DNA from: an uncultured Flavobacteriaceae bacterium
GTDB lineage: Bacteria; Bacteroidota; Bacteroidia; Flavobacteriales; Flavobacteriaceae
Assembly (NCBI GenBank): GCA_913043275.1
Contig: CAJWLL010000002.1
Coordinates: 1-64,000, forward strand
Length of the DNA stretch: 64,000 bases
Reading direction: 5' to 3'
Part shown: positions 4,361-64,000 of the stretch, one piece after another
Layout: the number at the start of each line of letters is the position of its first letter
Position numbering within the stretch: position 1 is the stretch's first letter
The notes under the pieces: generated by a model
Told to the model about the DNA's origin: nothing
Databases searched by the model: none
Seen by the model: only the letters and a program-made list of their open reading frames with translations
Program-made: the position numbers and the translations under genes

Positions 4361-7300
4361 ATGTACCAGTCGATTTCTAATAAAACAGGATGTTTATTAA
4401 TCGTAGTCTTGTTTGCCTGCGGTTGTATTACTAACATTCCTAGTGAAATGGTTCAAGAAATTTCAAAATTGCCAGACGAAATTGATTATAATTTTCATGT
4501 CAAGCCCATTTTGTCTGACAAATGTTTTGCTTGTCACGGGCCAGATTCAAATAAAAGAAAGGCCAATTTAAGGTTAGATTTCGACAAAAAACTCCTTGGA
4601 GATAATGACCCACAAGTCCTCACCATTGAAGATGTAAAATCCGAAATTCCGAATCGGTTATTATCTCAGGATCCAAAAAAACACATGCCACCTCCCGAAT
4701 CTCATTTAAGCCTCTCCGATCAGGAAATTGCGACAATTTTAAAGTGGATGGATCAAGGGTCAGCATACAAGCCCCACTGGTCATTCATTCCGCCCTCAAA
4801 AGGAAAACTGCCTGAAATTTTGGATGAAACTTGGGTGGAGAATGAAATTGATTTTTTTACAAAGATAAAATTGGATGAACACAACATCTCACCTTCCAAA
4901 AAAGCTACTAAAGAAACCCTGATTCGCCGATTGAGTTTTACCCTTACAGGACTTCCTCCCAGCCTGGATGAAATTGATACTTTTTTAGCTGATGAATCGC
5001 TTGAGGCCTATGAAAAAATGATCGATCAATTGCTTCTTTCCCCTCATTATGGAGAGCGAATGGCTGCCGAATGGATGGACGTTGCCCGATATGCAGATTC
5101 AGATGGGTACTTGGATGACAAACACAGAAACTTTAGCCCTTGGAGGGATTGGATAATCAATGCTTTTAATCAGAATTTGAGCTATGAAAACTTTGTAACT
5201 CATCAATTGGCCGGAGACTTAATTCCCAATGCGGATCAATCCAGTAAAATTGCCACAGCATTTAACCGCCTTCACAAAAAAAATTCAGAAGCAGGGATCA
5301 TCTTTGAGGAATACCGAACTGAGTACGTTGCTGATCGGGCGGTTACTTTTGGCAAGGCATTTCTTGGAATGACCATGGAGTGTGCCCGATGCCATGATCA
5401 CAAATACGACCCCATTAGTCAAAAGAATTTTTACGAAATCTCTAGCTTTTTCAACAGCACCAATGAAATAGGACATGCCGGATATGGGCCAGGACAGGTT
5501 GCAGGCCCCTCTCTACTTCTGACCAATGACGAGCAAGAAACCCTCATTGATTATATAAAAAATGATCTCAGTTCTAAAAAAGAAAAAATTTCCCAAAACC
5601 TCACTCAAAAAGAACAAGCTTTTGAAAATTGGTTTACCAATAAAAAAGAAGCCACCCAATCTATTGTAAAAAACCTTAATAAAGGCTTGGTGGCCCATTA
5701 CCCTTTTGATGAATTTATCCCCAGAGCCAAATCAAAAGTATTTTATAGTCCAAGTCGTATTCGCGGGCAAAAAGCTGCAACCCTATCGGAACCGATTATC
5801 AATAAGGATAAGGATGAAGAGGGCTTTTTTATGGATGAATACACAAATATGAAACTCCCTGAAAAGGTAGGTTGGTTTGACCAAACCGACCCCTTTACAC
5901 TTTCCTTTTCTATATATGCTGATCACAAAGATCAAGAAGCCATTGTTTTTGGTCATTGTGAGCAAATCAGATTGGGTCTCAAGGGGTATTCTTTCTTTAT
6001 CAATGACAATAAGCTCAAGTTCATTATGGCCAGATCGTGGCCACAAAATGCCATTGAGATAGAAACCCTTAGGCCTATCGCCTCAAAAAAATGGAGTCAA
6101 GTAACCATTGCCTATGACGGCAAAGGAGCTGTCGGGGGAATCCATATATACCTCGATGGAAAAAAGATTGCCGTTAAAAGAAAAGGAGACGAATTGTATA
6201 AATCCATTTTGTTCGAGCCCGATATTCATACCTATGGATTTGAAGGGTTTAAGATGGGTTCCAGTCACAAGCTCAAGACTTTTGAAAATGGTGGGTTTGA
6301 TGAATTAAAAATTTATGATAGGGAATTAACAGCCCTTGAGATAGCCTATCAGAATGACTCAAGTGTTTTTGAACAGCTCTCAGCAGCTGATTCATCGACA
6401 GAAAAGCGGTTGTTTAAGGATTACTTTTTCAAAAAAATAGAACCCACTGCTCGGGCGCTAAATTTGGAGTACCTCAACCTACGAAAAAAATTAACCAAGA
6501 CAATAGATCCCATTCCTGAATTGATGATTATGGGAGATAGCAAAAGCCCAAGACCAACCTATGTTCTCAACCGAGGGTCATACAATGATAGAGGGGAAGA
6601 AGTTTTCCCCAATACACCGGACGTAATTTTGGAATTTGATAAAGAACTACCCAAAAATCGACTGGGTTTATCCCAATGGCTATTTGATTCCAACAATCCA
6701 CTAACTGCAAGGGTTTTTGTGAACAGGATTTGGCAAATGCACTTTGGCAAAGGACTGGCACCCTCTACTGATGATCTTGGAAATCAGGGGAGACTTCCTA
6801 CGCACCCTCAATTGTTGGATTGGTTGTCTAATTACTTTATGGAGAACAATTGGGACATCAAAAAACTCCACAAGAAAATTTTAAGTTCTGCCACCTTTCA
6901 GCAGCAATCGATAATAAGAGAAGATCTGGCAAATATCGATCCCGAAAACTTTCTTTTGGCAAAAGGGCCTTCTTATAGAATGTCGGCCGAGATGGTACGT
7001 GATAATGCACTCAAGGTCAGTGGACTTCTCGTGCCCAAAATAGGAGGGAAAAGTGTCTATCCCTACCAACCCGATGATCTGTGGAATTTGAGTGATAAAA
7101 AATGGAGATACCGATACCAGCACGATAGAGGAGAGGGTTTGTACAGGCGCAGTCTGTATACTTTTTGGAAACGATCGGCTCCCCCTCCTTCCATGATTAT
7201 TTTTGATACGCCCAACAGAGATCTATGTTCTGTAAAAAGAACATTGACCAGTACCCCCCTTCAGGCATTGTTACTGCTAAATGATCCACAATATGTTGAG

Positions 7301-7600
7301 GCCGCTCGGTTGATGGCCGAAAACTCTATTTTATCCAAAGACGAAAACATGGATAAAAAATTAAGTGCTATTTTCAGAAAAATTACCGGAAGAGCAATAA
7401 ATTACCGGGAATTAGAAACCCTTCAAAGGTTTTATATGGAGGAAAAAGAAAAATTTTCAAAAAACCCTAAAAAAGCAGTGGCCTATCTTAAGACAGGGGA
7501 GAAACCAATCAATCGAAAGACCGGAGTAATCAATACTGCTGCTCTAGCCACTGTTATCAGTGGACTAATGAATACGGCGGAGGCCATAACCATAAATTAA
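4361..7600 (+). CDS. Planctomycete-type cytochrome c lipoprotein (PSCyt1-DUF1549-LamG-DUF1553)
   Basis: This 1079-residue protein starts with a lipoprotein-like signal (hydrophobic 11-20, C20 or C22). Domains in order: PSCyt1 at about 45-115 with heme motif C55-x-x-C58-H59 (CFACH); DUF1549/PSCyt2 at about 155-365 with a second CxxCH at C341/C344/H345 (CARCH); a LamG/concanavalin-like lectin domain at about 440-665 (GLVAHYPFDE start, GGFDELKIYDREL end); and DUF1553/PSD1 at about 730-1070. The architecture is typical of Planctomycetes, Verrucomicrobia and some Bacteroidota, where it pairs with a DUF1501 protein. It does so here, 7 bases downstream. The biochemical role is not established; binding of a glycan by the LamG domain and redox chemistry by the hemes are inferences. 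Confidence 0.92.
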   Translation: MYQSISNKTGCLLIVVLFACGCITNIPSEMVQEISKLPDEIDYNFHVKPILSDKCFACHGPDSNKRKANLRLDFDKKLLGDNDPQVLTIEDVKSEIPNRLLSQDPKKHMPPPESHLSLSDQEIATILKWMDQGSAYKPHWSFIPPSKGKLPEILDETWVENEIDFFTKIKLDEHNISPSKKATKETLIRRLSFTLTGLPPSLDEIDTFLADESLEAYEKMIDQLLLSPHYGERMAAEWMDVARYADSDGYLDDKHRNFSPWRDWIINAFNQNLSYENFVTHQLAGDLIPNADQSSKIATAFNRLHKKNSEAGIIFEEYRTEYVADRAVTFGKAFLGMTMECARCHDHKYDPISQKNFYEISSFFNSTNEIGHAGYGPGQVAGPSLLLTNDEQETLIDYIKNDLSSKKEKISQNLTQKEQAFENWFTNKKEATQSIVKNLNKGLVAHYPFDEFIPRAKSKVFYSPSRIRGQKAATLSEPIINKDKDEEGFFMDEYTNMKLPEKVGWFDQTDPFTLSFSIYADHKDQEAIVFGHCEQIRLGLKGYSFFINDNKLKFIMARSWPQNAIEIETLRPIASKKWSQVTIAYDGKGAVGGIHIYLDGKKIAVKRKGDELYKSILFEPDIHTYGFEGFKMGSSHKLKTFENGGFDELKIYDRELTALEIAYQNDSSVFEQLSAADSSTEKRLFKDYFFKKIEPTARALNLEYLNLRKKLTKTIDPIPELMIMGDSKSPRPTYVLNRGSYNDRGEEVFPNTPDVILEFDKELPKNRLGLSQWLFDSNNPLTARVFVNRIWQMHFGKGLAPSTDDLGNQGRLPTHPQLLDWLSNYFMENNWDIKKLHKKILSSATFQQQSIIREDLANIDPENFLLAKGPSYRMSAEMVRDNALKVSGLLVPKIGGKSVYPYQPDDLWNLSDKKWRYRYQHDRGEGLYRRSLYTFWKRSAPPPSMIIFDTPNRDLCSVKRTLTSTPLQALLLLNDPQYVEAARLMAENSILSKDENMDKKLSAIFRKITGRAINYRELETLQRFYMEEKEKFSKNPKKAVAYLKTGEKPINRKTGVINTAALATVISGLMNTAEAITIN

Positions 7601-55568: not shown

Positions 55569-56675
55569 TTACATTTCGAGTGAGTGGATGTATTCTTCCA
55601 TTAGTGCTAAACCCTCTTTATGAATACTTTTTCGCCCAACCTCGGGCATCATTATTCCAGGGTCAGTACTTTTGTAGCGGTAGATCATGATAGAGTTTTC
55701 GGGTTCACCGGGGACAATACTGAATTTCAAATTTCCCGATCCTTTTCCTGCAGCAATTGGTGGTTTGTAAACCCCTCTTCTACGTTTGTTTTTTTCATGG
55801 TAAGTGAGATTAAGCCCTGAATTTTTGGCCGGTCCAAGATCATTATGACAATGGGCACAGTTGATGTGGAGGTAGGCTTTTGCCCTGTCATCAAGAGTTC
55901 CTGAATCCTCTTGGTTCCAGATAGCAAAGCGTGGACGTTTCTCTTTTTTGGGGAGTCCCTTAAGAACTTCTTTTTGAACAAAGTATTCCAGTTGGTCATG
56001 AACCATTCCCTCATAGATGTTATTTCGGTTGAGCTGACCCGCTATTGGACCAATAGGGGAAATTTCTTTACCCAACATATGACAGCTTTTACAAAGGGTT
56101 TGATTAGGGATTGCATAGATTAGGTTTTGACTTTTTCCGTTGTGATCTATCCAACTTACGGGAGTTTTACCTCCGATGATATTTACAAATGCATCGGTTT
56201 GTTCTTCGTTCCAGACATAGGAAAGGGTTTTCCATGACTGGTTTTGCTCTTTGATCAACAAACGGGTTTCTATTATTTTTTTTTCTCCCTCCGGATTTCT
56301 GAAGTCAGAAGGATAGTAAAAGTTTTTGATGATGATGCTTCCGACATCAAACTCCATTACTCCCTCAGGGCGGTAGAACATTTTCTTGCCCTTGGGAAAA
56401 TAGATGAATCTTTTTTTGTGGGAGTAGTCCGAAAAAAGGGCATTGTTGAGTTTGTATTCATAAACATTTTCAGCAGGCTTAAGGTCAGCAATTTTACCCT
56501 CAAAAAAGGGATATTCAGAAAGCTTGGCTATTTCATTGAATTGGTCTTTAGTGATAGCTATTTTGGGAACTACTTTTCTGGCTATGGGCGCGGTTCCTTT
56601 TTCCACATTGTTTTTGCAAGAAACCAAAAAGCTCAGTGAGATCCCTAATAAATAAAAATACTTCAGGGGTGACAT
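55569..56675 (-). CDS. Diheme c-type cytochrome, SO2930 / HNE_0200 family
   Basis: From ATG 56675 the protein has 368 residues: a lipoprotein signal (LSFLVSC, C20) and two heme c motifs, C195-x-x-C198-H199 (CKSCH) and C273-x-x-C276-H277 (CAHCH). The sequence around them (GKTPVSWID, LYAIPNQ-like, GPAKNSGLNL, PGEPENSIMIYR) fits the family known to occur next to beta-helix proteins. Start choice: an in-frame ATG at 56747 would lie inside the upstream gene and give no signal peptide at the N-terminus; ATG 56675 follows directly on the beta-helix stop. Role unknown, presumably extracytoplasmic electron transfer or an oxidoreductase. Confidence 0.9.
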   Translation of the reverse strand: MSPLKYFYLLGISLSFLVSCKNNVEKGTAPIARKVVPKIAITKDQFNEIAKLSEYPFFEGKIADLKPAENVYEYKLNNALFSDYSHKKRFIYFPKGKKMFYRPEGVMEFDVGSIIIKNFYYPSDFRNPEGEKKIIETRLLIKEQNQSWKTLSYVWNEEQTDAFVNIIGGKTPVSWIDHNGKSQNLIYAIPNQTLCKSCHMLGKEISPIGPIAGQLNRNNIYEGMVHDQLEYFVQKEVLKGLPKKEKRPRFAIWNQEDSGTLDDRAKAYLHINCAHCHNDLGPAKNSGLNLTYHEKNKRRRGVYKPPIAAGKGSGNLKFSIVPGEPENSIMIYRYKSTDPGIMMPEVGRKSIHKEGLALMEEYIHSLEM

Positions 56676-56676
56676 T

Positions 56677-57984
56677 TTAGATGGATTTTTCAAATTCAAC
56701 TTCACATTCATAATTTCCAACGTCATTAGAGAATTCATTAAAATCATTAGCTGCGTCTAGGGCGGCAAAGTTAATTTTTCCGTTGTTTTTGATGCAAACT
56801 TTGTATTCAGGATTTATTTGTTGACCCTTGGTGTAGTAGTCTTTTGGTAAAATACCGTCATAGGCAATGTCAGGGATTTTCATCCAATTTTTATACACCC
56901 ACAATTTACCAAAATCATTGTCCAAAGCTGGGAACCAATGTTTGTTTTTGAATTGGTTGTTGTAAATAAATATTTTCCCCGGATAAGCACTGTACTTGGT
57001 GTCGCTCTCATAATCATTTTCTACCTGTCTGACTCCATTGGGTAGTCCCTTCTTTTTCTTTTTCTTCTTTTTCTTTTTGGGAGGTACATATATTTCATAG
57101 CTGACAATAGAGCTGTTGATGGTTTTGTGATTTTCAATTTTATTTTCGAAAAGAGCTACCTTTTTGGTGGCCATTATGATTACACCTGAACCTCTAGGGA
57201 CAGAACTGACGATGGACCCCTTTACTCCAAAATTTCTCAAATTGTTGTCGTGAATGTAATTGTTGTGGGCCTTGACGTTTTCTCCGTAAACAGTCAGGTG
57301 GGGGAGATTGAAAATAAGCAGTCCTCCAGTATTTTGATAAACCTCATTGTTGAATATTTCAACTTGGCTACTGTTTTCGCTTTCGATTCCCGCGACATTG
57401 TAATAAGCTTTGTTGTTTTTTACCGTTACGTTTTGGGATTGTCCAACATAGATGCCAGCATCCGAAGCTCCTATGGCTTCACAGCCCTCAATCAATAGAT
57501 TTTTACATAAAACAGGATACAAGGCATAGGCTCCATTTTGTGTCGATACTTTTCCAGTCCATGCCGAGCGAATGTTTCGGATGGTCACATTTTCTGAATC
57601 TGTAATTTTTAGATTATCCCCGGCAGCATCTTCGATGGACATGTTTTCAATGGTTAGGTTCTTACAGTTGGAAATCCTGATTCCCTCTGCACCTTGTTTT
57701 TGCCCTTTAAAAGAAAGTACTGTTTTTTCGATGCCCTTGCCGCGAAGGATAATATTTTTCTTACCATCCAAAATCAAAGATTGAGAAAATAGATAGTGAC
57801 CTTCAGGTAGATCAATCACACTGCTATCCTGGGCGGTAATGAATGCCCTTAGTATGGGGATTTCCATGTCCAAATAATCTCTATCAGGATTGTAGGAGGG
57901 CATTGTAGGGGATTTCAATAGTAAAAAGGCAATAAGTGCCAAAACACTCATTATGGTCAATACAGCTTTTAATCTCAAAATCAT
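56677..57984 (-). CDS. Parallel beta-helix repeat protein paired with diheme cytochrome
   Basis: The 435-residue protein has an N-terminal hydrophobic anchor or signal (about 8-24) and a parallel beta-helix body: successive strands KNIILRGKGIEKTVLSF, CKNLTIENMSI, SENVTIRNIR, CKNLLIEGCEAIG, SQNVTVKNNKAYYN, SSQVEIFNNEVYQN. At about residue 302-312 there is a run of ten lysines (PPK10GLP), unusual for this fold. The gene ends one base before the cytochrome start, so the two are surely co-transcribed. The pair recurs in Proteobacteria and Bacteroidota without an assigned function; a sugar- or polyuronate-type substrate is suggested only by the fold. Confidence 0.88.
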   Translation of the reverse strand: MILRLKAVLTIMSVLALIAFLLLKSPTMPSYNPDRDYLDMEIPILRAFITAQDSSVIDLPEGHYLFSQSLILDGKKNIILRGKGIEKTVLSFKGQKQGAEGIRISNCKNLTIENMSIEDAAGDNLKITDSENVTIRNIRSAWTGKVSTQNGAYALYPVLCKNLLIEGCEAIGASDAGIYVGQSQNVTVKNNKAYYNVAGIESENSSQVEIFNNEVYQNTGGLLIFNLPHLTVYGENVKAHNNYIHDNNLRNFGVKGSIVSSVPRGSGVIIMATKKVALFENKIENHKTINSSIVSYEIYVPPKKKKKKKKKKGLPNGVRQVENDYESDTKYSAYPGKIFIYNNQFKNKHWFPALDNDFGKLWVYKNWMKIPDIAYDGILPKDYYTKGQQINPEYKVCIKNNGKINFAALDAANDFNEFSNDVGNYECEVEFEKSI

Positions 57985-63065: not shown

Positions 63066-64000
63066 ATGGATTTTAGAAAAGACACATTGCTATCCCTGCC
63101 ATTTAAACTTATTGAAGTTTTTTTTAGAAACCTATCTTCATCTAGGCTTACTGTCTTGTTGACTTCAGCATTTACTCTTTTTTCAATCTTTTTTTTATTT
63201 GCACAAGAGGCAGATGTTCAAGCAGGTAAAAAGCTTTTCAATGCTAATTGTGCATCTTGTCACAAATTGAATAAAAAAGCAGTTGGCCCTGCCCTCAAGG
63301 GGGTTTCTGCCAAGTATGATCGGGAGTGGCTTTACAGTTGGATAAAGAACAGCTCAGCTATGATCAAAGATGGTGACCCTCAAGCCATAGCTGTTTGGGA
63401 GGAATATAATAAGGTAGCAATGAATGCCTTCCCCATGTTGTCAAATGCTGACATTGATAATATTTTAGCCTATTCGGATTATACACCTCCTGCGCCAGTG
63501 GCTGTAGCTTCAAACCAACAGCCGGCCTCCTCTTCAGGAACGAGTAATGATCTGATCTTAGTAGCATTGACACTGGTGTTTATCATTTTGGTGGTAATGC
63601 TTTTTTTGGTACAAAAAACATTAAAAAGAATAGCTTTTGCCAGTGGTGTAGACATTTCACCAACTGTTAAAGAAAAGAGACCGCCCCTATGGCAAGTAGT
63701 TGCCAAAAATCATTTTCTTATTTTCCTCCTGGTTGTTGGATTTCTGTTGAGCAGTGCCTACTTTGTATACGGTTTTCTGATGCAAGTTGGAATTGATCAA
63801 GGCTATATGCCAGTTCAACCAATCCATTATTCACACAAAATACATGCAGGGGCCAATCAAATTGAATGTAAATATTGCCATTCCTCTGCTCGAGTTTCTA
63901 AACATTCGGGAATACCCTCTTTGAACGTTTGTATGAATTGTCACAAAAACATTGCCGAATACAACGGTGAGGAAGATATAGAAAACGGTTATACCAAAGA
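63066..64000 (+). CDS. actA: Alternative complex III cytochrome subunit ActA, 3' truncated by window edge
   Basis: The frame from ATG 63066 is open to the window end (311 codons seen). It begins with a hydrophobic export segment (about 28-46, ending FAQ), then a monoheme cytochrome c domain with C62/C65/H66 (CASCH), a transmembrane helix at about 163-183, another at about 216-236, then the pentaheme-type domain with HYSHKIHAG and heme motifs C268/C271/H272 (CKYCH) and C289/C292/H293 (CMNCH). This is the ActA layout of flavobacterial alternative complex III, which oxidises menaquinol and passes electrons to cytochrome c or an oxidase. actB and the other subunits are expected downstream. A TAAATTTG box lies so close to the ATG (ends 63063) that start or box may be misassigned. 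Confidence 0.93.
   Translation, partial: MDFRKDTLLSLPFKLIEVFFRNLSSSRLTVLLTSAFTLFSIFFLFAQEADVQAGKKLFNANCASCHKLNKKAVGPALKGVSAKYDREWLYSWIKNSSAMIKDGDPQAIAVWEEYNKVAMNAFPMLSNADIDNILAYSDYTPPAPVAVASNQQPASSSGTSNDLILVALTLVFIILVVMLFLVQKTLKRIAFASGVDISPTVKEKRPPLWQVVAKNHFLIFLLVVGFLLSSAYFVYGFLMQVGIDQGYMPVQPIHYSHKIHAGANQIECKYCHSSARVSKHSGIPSLNVCMNCHKNIAEYNGEEDIENGYTK

Follow-up and report, generated by a model that had tools for sequence, protein, structure and literature searches.

The window analysed here comprises 64,000 nucleotides from an uncultured Flavobacteriaceae bacterium (GenBank assembly GCA_913043275.1, contig CAJWLL010000002.1, positions 1 to 64,000 of the forward strand) and contains two minus-strand genes, one coding for a predicted parallel beta-helix protein and the other for a diheme c-type cytochrome (Table 1). 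The pair is annotated without a function; it now gains a testable reaction centre from an apparently P460-like heme site, from the invariant residues of that pocket, and from two domain swaps seen in nature. A single base separates the helix stop codon from the cytochrome ATG, and the codon coordinates thus confirm the spacing given in an earlier reading made from the sequence alone (the sequence-only reading). A mechanical list of open reading frames (orfs) starts the cytochrome at 56747, within the helix gene. We prefer the ATG at 56675 for the lipoprotein-type signal that it provides, SLSFLVSC, recognized by eye. A divergent plus-strand block lies upstream, in which rimP, nusA and infB were recognized by eye (nusA was confirmed), and a convergent gene for a Big_5/DUF2141 protein lies downstream. 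Judged by orientation, the helix and cytochrome genes are a stand-alone two-gene unit.

Table 1. Coordinates of the two genes and their features in the window, and of helix units with a MauG-type gene at other loci.
Feature	Coordinates	Strand	Remarks
Beta-helix gene (P0002)	57984-56677	minus	435 aa; stop codon 56679-56677
Helix protein	56677..57984	minus	N-terminal hydrophobic anchor or signal, then predicted right-handed parallel beta-helix
W142	57559..57561	minus	79/80 paired, 4/4 fused, 0/6 helices of other architectures
Y153-x-x-Y156, start of Y[GA]xYPV	57517..57528	minus	Presumed active face
Ten-lysine run, residues 303-312, loop	57049..57078	minus	pLDDT <50 at residues 304-324
Diheme cytochrome gene (P0001)	56675-55569	minus	368 aa from ATG 56675-56673; probable lipoprotein
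P460/c'-beta-like beta-rich domain, residues 46-218, heme 1 CKSCH (195-199)	56022..56540	minus	Structure rows and profiles
K117	56325..56327	minus	At P460 heme-cross-link lysine column (profile alignment); 80/81 cytochromes
E136-T137-R138 polar triplet	56262..56270	minus	On strand bearing P460 distal carboxylate; 81/81
C-terminal cytochrome c domain, heme 2 CAHCH (273-277)	55569..55892	minus	Probable Met ligand M343; pair-specific K304
MauG-type gene + helix unit, L218	3945-7419
MauG-type gene + helix unit, L219	2661-6035
MauG-type gene + helix unit, L221	1933-5332
MauG-type gene + helix unit, L165	5769-8483

Both proteins are members of named NCBIfam families and do not differ from them in membership. 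The helix matches TIGR03805 (parallel beta-helix domain-containing protein) with 320.2 bits against a curated cut-off of 141.5, and the cytochrome matches TIGR03806 (SO2930 family diheme c-type cytochrome) with 350.9 bits against 313.3; each match covers profile positions 3-314 of 314. The sequence-only reading had called the system undescribed, which the two family names contradict, and the NCBI entries provide names without a function. Presumably the TIGRFAM comment already notes the TIGR03805/TIGR03806 pairing, its occasional fusion, and its unknown function. Among the open-access journal papers searched, none on the function of the pair was found. Relative to these papers, the new elements are the P460-like heme domain with its invariant pocket, the exchanges involving MauG and GSDH, and the residues that follow the partner; the P460-like domain and the link with MauG are also absent from the sequence-only reading.

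Two sets were scored for the two families: 296 evenly sampled genomes from the window's phylum, among them the genome of the window, and 249 from Pseudomonadota, the phylum of Kordiimonas, among them a Kordiimonas genome. The cytochrome is present above cut-off in 19 of the 296 genomes, and all 19 also have the helix; the genes adjoin in 15, are about 10 kb apart in G013, and are on different contigs in G034, G131 and G190. A helix above cut-off is present in 21 genomes here, G033 and G134 being without this cytochrome. Among the Kordiimonas-phylum genomes the cytochrome is present in 20 of 249 and the helix in 20 of these 20, all as neighbours or fused; the helix is found in 24 genomes, with G390 and G505 having it fused to a sub-cut-off cytochrome and G438 and G546 having no such cytochrome. 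Fisher p-values for the pairing are 5e-28 (window phylum) and 7e-26 (Kordiimonas phylum), both calculated with genome kinship ignored and the centre genomes counted. More distant cytochromes, below cut-off, are often found without a helix (for example in G226, G289, G084, G257, G012, G118, G277 and G057). The helix–cytochrome link is close to obligate. The functional pair recurring in distant phyla that the sequence-only reading had proposed is thus borne out by co-occurrence and by natural fusions, and the genes are not found mostly apart, the outcome it had named as a refutation.

A second view of the pairing is provided by 80 named loci, the best of at least 587 candidates. The helix gene lies upstream on the same strand in 68 of these, and in the remaining 12 it is elsewhere in the genome in all cases; the contig ends within about 0.5 kb upstream in five of the 12 (L081, L087, L110, L120 and L123), and L117 lay outside the genome-wide helix search. 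Sixty-six of the 80 loci pass the neighbour filter, with intergenic gaps of -86 to 230 bases (13 of them -4). Beyond this filter, L086 is also adjacent, with a 110-base overlap, and L068 has one intervening gene. Orf starts were called crudely, and the overlaps are therefore approximate. The named loci and genome samples partly overlap—the L096 helix, for example, is at the same place as the G131 helix—and because some named loci are sampled genomes the counts are not fully independent. Judged by their titles, the loci include Bacteroidota, Planctomycetes (Isosphaeraceae, Pirellulales, Mariniblastus) and Kordiimonas. The pair is widespread: 19/296 and 20/249 genomes, centre genomes included, plus the Planctomycetes-titled loci. 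No constant third gene was found among 957 clustered orfs around the 80 loci. The largest other cluster is present at 10 of the 80 and looks like a sulfatase from its sequence; DUF1080-like, Gfo/Idh-like and sugar-isomerase-like genes were recognized by eye near a few loci each.

In the AF2 model of the cytochrome (pLDDT 85.3) the N-terminal domain is beta-rich and carries heme 1, and the C-terminal one is a cytochrome c domain. The window protein has two CXXCH motifs, CKSCH for heme 1 and CAHCH for heme 2, and exactly two are present in 80 of 80 relatives. In the heme-2 domain, both M343 and K304 are conserved in 81 of 81 cytochromes; K304 is also present in four of five sequences from helix-fused loci and is missing from all 16 other relatives checked, with an alignment gap at this position in three of them. 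A lipid anchor is plausible for the window cytochrome, as the sequence-only reading had it, but the anchor is not general, a crude lipobox pattern being present in 32 of 80 related cytochromes. A list within PMC4837345 includes SO_2930 and SO_2931 among the cytochromes at the outer membrane or outside.

The beta-rich domain of heme 1 resembles cytochrome P460 and cytochrome c'-beta. The ten best VIA rows for the model are all cytochrome P460 or c'-beta, representing five distinct proteins, with Z from 7.9 to 5.5 (the next row is at 4.7); they start at residues 45-47 and end at residues 213-245. Best Z values of 7-8 are common for models without a clear match, however, and Foldseek gives the P460 match an E-value of 0.086. 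Sequence tests of the likeness were run because the Foldseek value is weak and a Z of 7-8 can arise without a true match. In hhalign comparisons against 13 P460 homologs from a 148-genome sample, P is 1e-6 to 1e-4 in four settings that include the heme motif and 0.0013 in a fifth; with the motif removed from the query side P is 0.001 and 0.053, and with the motif removed from both sides it is 0.0008 twice. In this last form every one of the 100 column shuffles scores below the real alignment, in both settings used; for the C-terminal domain, the control, 8 and 7 of 100 shuffles score at least as high. The Pfam P460 model, PF16694, matches 8 of 19 family members at E ≤5, the best at 0.0034, all short of the gathering score. 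When the P460 profile was run over the cytochromes, the whole-sequence E-values were small (best 1.2e-6) but the single-domain values poor (0.0001 at best among the matches listed); two CXXCH sites can produce such a contrast, and the result was therefore not used.

The full-length profile alignment places a P-x-G motif, K117, W148 and CXXCH on their P460 counterparts. The P-x-G proline is Pro in 76 of 81 cytochromes and Asp in the window protein. The lysine cross-linked to the heme of the Methylococcus capsulatus enzyme is Lys78 according to passages of PMC11928373 and PMC6427953. A further 21 sequences were checked, comprising 11 paralogs, five of a GSDH-type group (including L163, 479 aa, in which no GSDH domain was seen by eye) and five from helix-fused loci: all 21 have the E136-T137-R138 triplet, and 20 also have K117, with Gln replacing it in one. 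R89 was considered as the counterpart of Arg50 of McP460, the spacing from R89 to K117 and from Arg50 to Lys78 being 28 residues in both, but the equivalence is not claimed because the profile alignment does not pair R89 with Arg50. As a separate observation, the P460 proteins L144, L145 and L157 (310-333 aa) have an extra N-terminal CXXCH region ahead of the P460 domain.

On several of the comparisons the support for a relationship with P460 is modest. The hhalign probability with the heme motif spans 18-82%, one motif-removed query gave the P of 0.053 noted above, and one of the shuffle settings is narrow (26.6 versus a maximum of 25.7). The window cytochrome itself has no PF16694 match at E ≤5, and in the reverse search the family profile reaches P460 proteins at E ≥0.031 only. 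In the profile alignment R138 occupies the canonical P460 carboxylate column (Glu96/Asp102), and the invariant E136 precedes it by two residues on that strand. The two groups share a beta-rich domain, a C-terminal CXXCH, P-x-G...K and the Trp column, whereas the window family is sub-threshold in Pfam, is fused to a cytochrome c domain, and has a beta-helix partner. We consider the P460-like nature of the heme-1 domain supported but not proven, and because the carboxylate column is R138 rather than an acid, the domain is termed P460-like and not classed as P460.

The beta-helix fold is confidently predicted for the partner, from an AF2 model with pLDDT 88.4 and a PF13229 match of 71.7 bits. The best structural row from the Protein Data Bank (PDB) is the AlgE6 A-module (Z 32.0 over 293 residues, rmsd 2.6), followed by AlgE4, other polysaccharide enzymes, phage proteins, and NosD (Z 27.9). 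High scores are general among beta-helix folds, with 447 chains at Z ≥8, and because these chains score highly as a class the AlgE match informs on the fold only. By sequence, a profile of alignment A1 (19 helices) reaches 5lw3 at an E-value of 1.1 only, in a different stretch, and PDB searches with a MauG-type helix and with a fused protein gave no AlgE alignment. Tyr149, Asp152, His154 and Asp178 are given as the AlgE catalytic residues in a passage of PMC7385640. Tyr and Asp are conserved on the window-family helix too, but the AlgE-type Y-x-x-D-x-H is present in one of the 19 helices of A1, and all 19 have Y[GA]xYPV in its stead; the columns are taken as putative equivalents of those in AlgE.

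Conservation was examined in 90 helices, comprising 80 paired, four fused and six of other architectures; for this alignment 18 fetched regions provided 11 helices, the others being lost to a longer frame in the crude orf calling. Y153, P157, D175, Y179, E201, E203 and N204 are kept across all 90, and Y153 and Y156 together are kept in 80 of 80 pair-type and four of four fused helices. K126 is present in 80 of 80 paired, three of four fused, and none of the six other helices; K126 and W142 follow the type of helix that is paired with TIGR03806, as judged from the alignment. Y156, V158 and Q182 follow the paired type partly, all three being present in L160 (a helix fused to a MauG-type enzyme) and V158 and Q182 in L051. 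From these residues the helix groove looks like an active site, though not that of AlgE. The run of ten lysines has counterparts of 7-8 lysines in the close relatives L062-L064 and is absent in L065; it is a clade-specific poly-lysine loop that possibly serves in anionic polymer binding. A crude lipobox pattern is found in 23 of 68 related helices, and CXXCH in none of 68 pair-type helices.

A variety of fusions and partner exchanges are observed. Helix and cytochrome form a single open chain of 881-1019 aa, helix first, in G528, G390, G555 and G505, and the G528 protein exceeds the cut-offs of both curated models. In G254 a TIGR03805-type helix above cut-off (L160) is instead fused to a MauG-type diheme enzyme, and in G134, G438, G546 and G300 a helix above cut-off directly follows a MauG-type gene. 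The helices of G134, G438 and G546 have in addition a C-terminal cytochrome c domain in Pfam, a match that was not returned for G300. The two MauG-type proteins scanned, L160 and L165, are nearest TTQ_mauG and MbnH in NCBIfam, below cut-off. The G033 helix (L051) has no MauG-type neighbour, its two adjacent scanned orfs being a tRNA synthetase and a radical-SAM protein. On the cytochrome side, GSDH domains are fused to sub-cut-off TIGR03806-type cytochromes in L161 (G254), L164 (G226) and L220 (G558), and L162, also in G254, looks like a GSDH–cytochrome fusion by eye. Because of these MauG and GSDH swaps, the helix has diheme partners of two kinds and the cytochrome carbohydrate-enzyme-like partners of two kinds; helix and cytochrome are exchangeable parts. 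MauG and MbnH resemble the window cytochrome as diheme enzymes coupled to a partner protein, and MauG types replace TIGR03806 beside related helices, but TIGR03806 proteins have no real CCP_MauG match: PF03150 finds none in the window cytochrome at E ≤5 and matches 3 of 19 members weakly, the best at 0.26.

The MauG-type diheme gene followed by a helix gene forms a second recurring unit, met with in two phyla. An upstream gene is common to L218, L219 and L221, and in L218 it is a cytochrome c. The unit of L221 is succeeded by genes for a radical-SAM protein and a glycyl-radical enzyme.

We favour, at somewhat less than even probability, the interpretation that helix and cytochrome together act as a heme oxidoreductase: a carbohydrate-like substrate would be presented by the helix, and the P460-like heme would either oxidise this substrate or accept electrons from it. 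The two proteins would form one envelope-anchored enzyme, with the beta-helix as the substrate-holding subunit; its long groove, whose fold is related to that of alginate epimerases and lyases, may bind an anionic sugar or sugar polymer. In the P460-like domain heme 1 would lie in a polar, accessible site, K117 being close to the porphyrin or linked to it; this heme would oxidise the substrate itself or an intermediate that arises on the helix, and heme 2, with its probable His/Met ligation, would hand the electrons to a periplasmic cytochrome c and the respiratory chain, as family knowledge suggests. The oxidative step on a sugar suggested by the sequence-only reading gains partial support from the helix fold, nearest to mannuronan C5-epimerase, and from the fusion of GSDH to related cytochromes. 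Further points tell against the proposed heme oxidoreductase, besides the modest P460 support and the presence of the AlgE-type motif in one of 19 helices only. No beta-helix enzyme that catalyses a redox reaction is known to us, a sugar-metabolism neighbour is not constant (the largest other gene cluster is that found at 10 of 80 loci), and the characterised P460 enzymes use hydroxylamine, not sugars, according to the account in PMC11928373.

A broader proposal, which we hold to be possible though rather doubtful, is a class of beta-helix enzymes whose catalysis depends on oxidation by a heme: at least twice, via unrelated diheme proteins of the P460–cytochrome c and MauG types, bacteria would have joined one and the same beta-helix with a catalytic heme, either to install a protein-derived Tyr/Trp cofactor in the groove or to oxidise a carbohydrate held there. 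If true, this fold of polysaccharide enzymes would, as far as known, gain its first redox function, and P460-type hemes their first role outside nitrogen chemistry. Should heme 1 be a cross-linked P460 centre, the cofactor would extend well beyond nitrifiers and methanotrophs.

As an alternative to the favoured interpretation, the diheme enzyme may act on the helix itself and oxidise helix aromatics (W142, Y153, Y156 or Y179) to give a quinone- or kynurenine-like catalytic site. MauG acts in this way upon a partner, methylamine dehydrogenase, and MbnH acts on MbnP. Five genomes in which a helix above cut-off is fused to a MauG-type enzyme (G254) or lies beside one are in keeping with such a cofactor maker, as are the below-cut-off NCBIfam assignments of L160 and L165; Y153 and Y179 are moreover present in 90 of 90 helices, and W142 tracks the P460-type partner. 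We nevertheless consider it unlikely. To our knowledge no P460 protein modifies a partner protein, the absence of W142 from the six other helices leaves no single common target except Tyr, and GSDH-fused cytochromes have no need of the step.

Nitrogen-oxide chemistry, with the P460-like heme oxidising hydroxylamine or binding NO and the helix acting as a scaffold like NosD in NosDFY, is improbable. A P460-like pocket containing a lysine would suit it, and the helix is of the same broad family as NosD, matching PF05048 weakly, with 32.6 bits, and NosD structures with Z 27.9; its TIGR04247 score, however, is 27.2 bits against a cut-off of 300. NosZ is found in 13 of 19 pair genomes versus 86 of 277 others (Fisher p 0.0017), an association confounded by relatedness and respiratory lifestyle, and six of the 19 pair genomes lack a NosZ match, including the window's own draft, which is 88% complete. 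The carboxylate column of P460 is Arg here, and the 80 loci have no constant third neighbour of any kind.

Scarcely probable either is a division of labour in which the cytochrome, with a non-catalytic heme 1, is a mere electron acceptor and the helix does the chemistry, as GSDH would in the fused relatives, or one in which the helix serves passively to assemble or anchor the cytochrome. Related cytochromes do join an unrelated catalytic domain, GSDH, and K304 of the heme-2 domain is retained among the helix partners and missing from all 16 of the other relatives, a pattern expected of an interface residue. Against this, K117 is conserved in 80/81 cytochromes and E136, T137 and R138 in 81/81, and all four recur in 20 of 21 further sequences; a simple relay would seem to require less, and the helix has no known redox cofactor.

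The genome containing the window is a draft of 2.0 Mb, and the closest named relatives of its cytochrome, at 85% identity, are L062 and L063, from a Bacteroidetes metagenome-assembled genome (MAG) and an uncultured Flavobacteriaceae MAG, consistent with Bacteroidota as the window's phylum. The same draft genome has at C10:44748-44963 (L167) an apparent C-terminal remnant of a second TIGR03806 cytochrome, matching with 66 bits, which directly precedes a gene that is vWA-like by eye. A vWA-like and an AAA-like gene, also recognized by eye, come after the full pair in the close relatives L062, L063, L064 and L069. The window pair may be a relocated or duplicated copy, with the remnant left at the older site.

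Two other orfs with CXXCH motifs are present in the window. The sequence-only reading drew a parallel between the helix–cytochrome pair and a PSCyt/LamG pair in the same window, the sole basis for which is the match of heme domain 2 to the PSCyt1 model, with 22.1 bits at a cut-off of 22. The 1079-aa orf at 4361-7600, with two CXXCH, is perhaps the PSCyt protein of that pair. The reading frame at 63066-63998, at the window end, has three CXXCH motifs and is perhaps part of respiratory alternative complex III.

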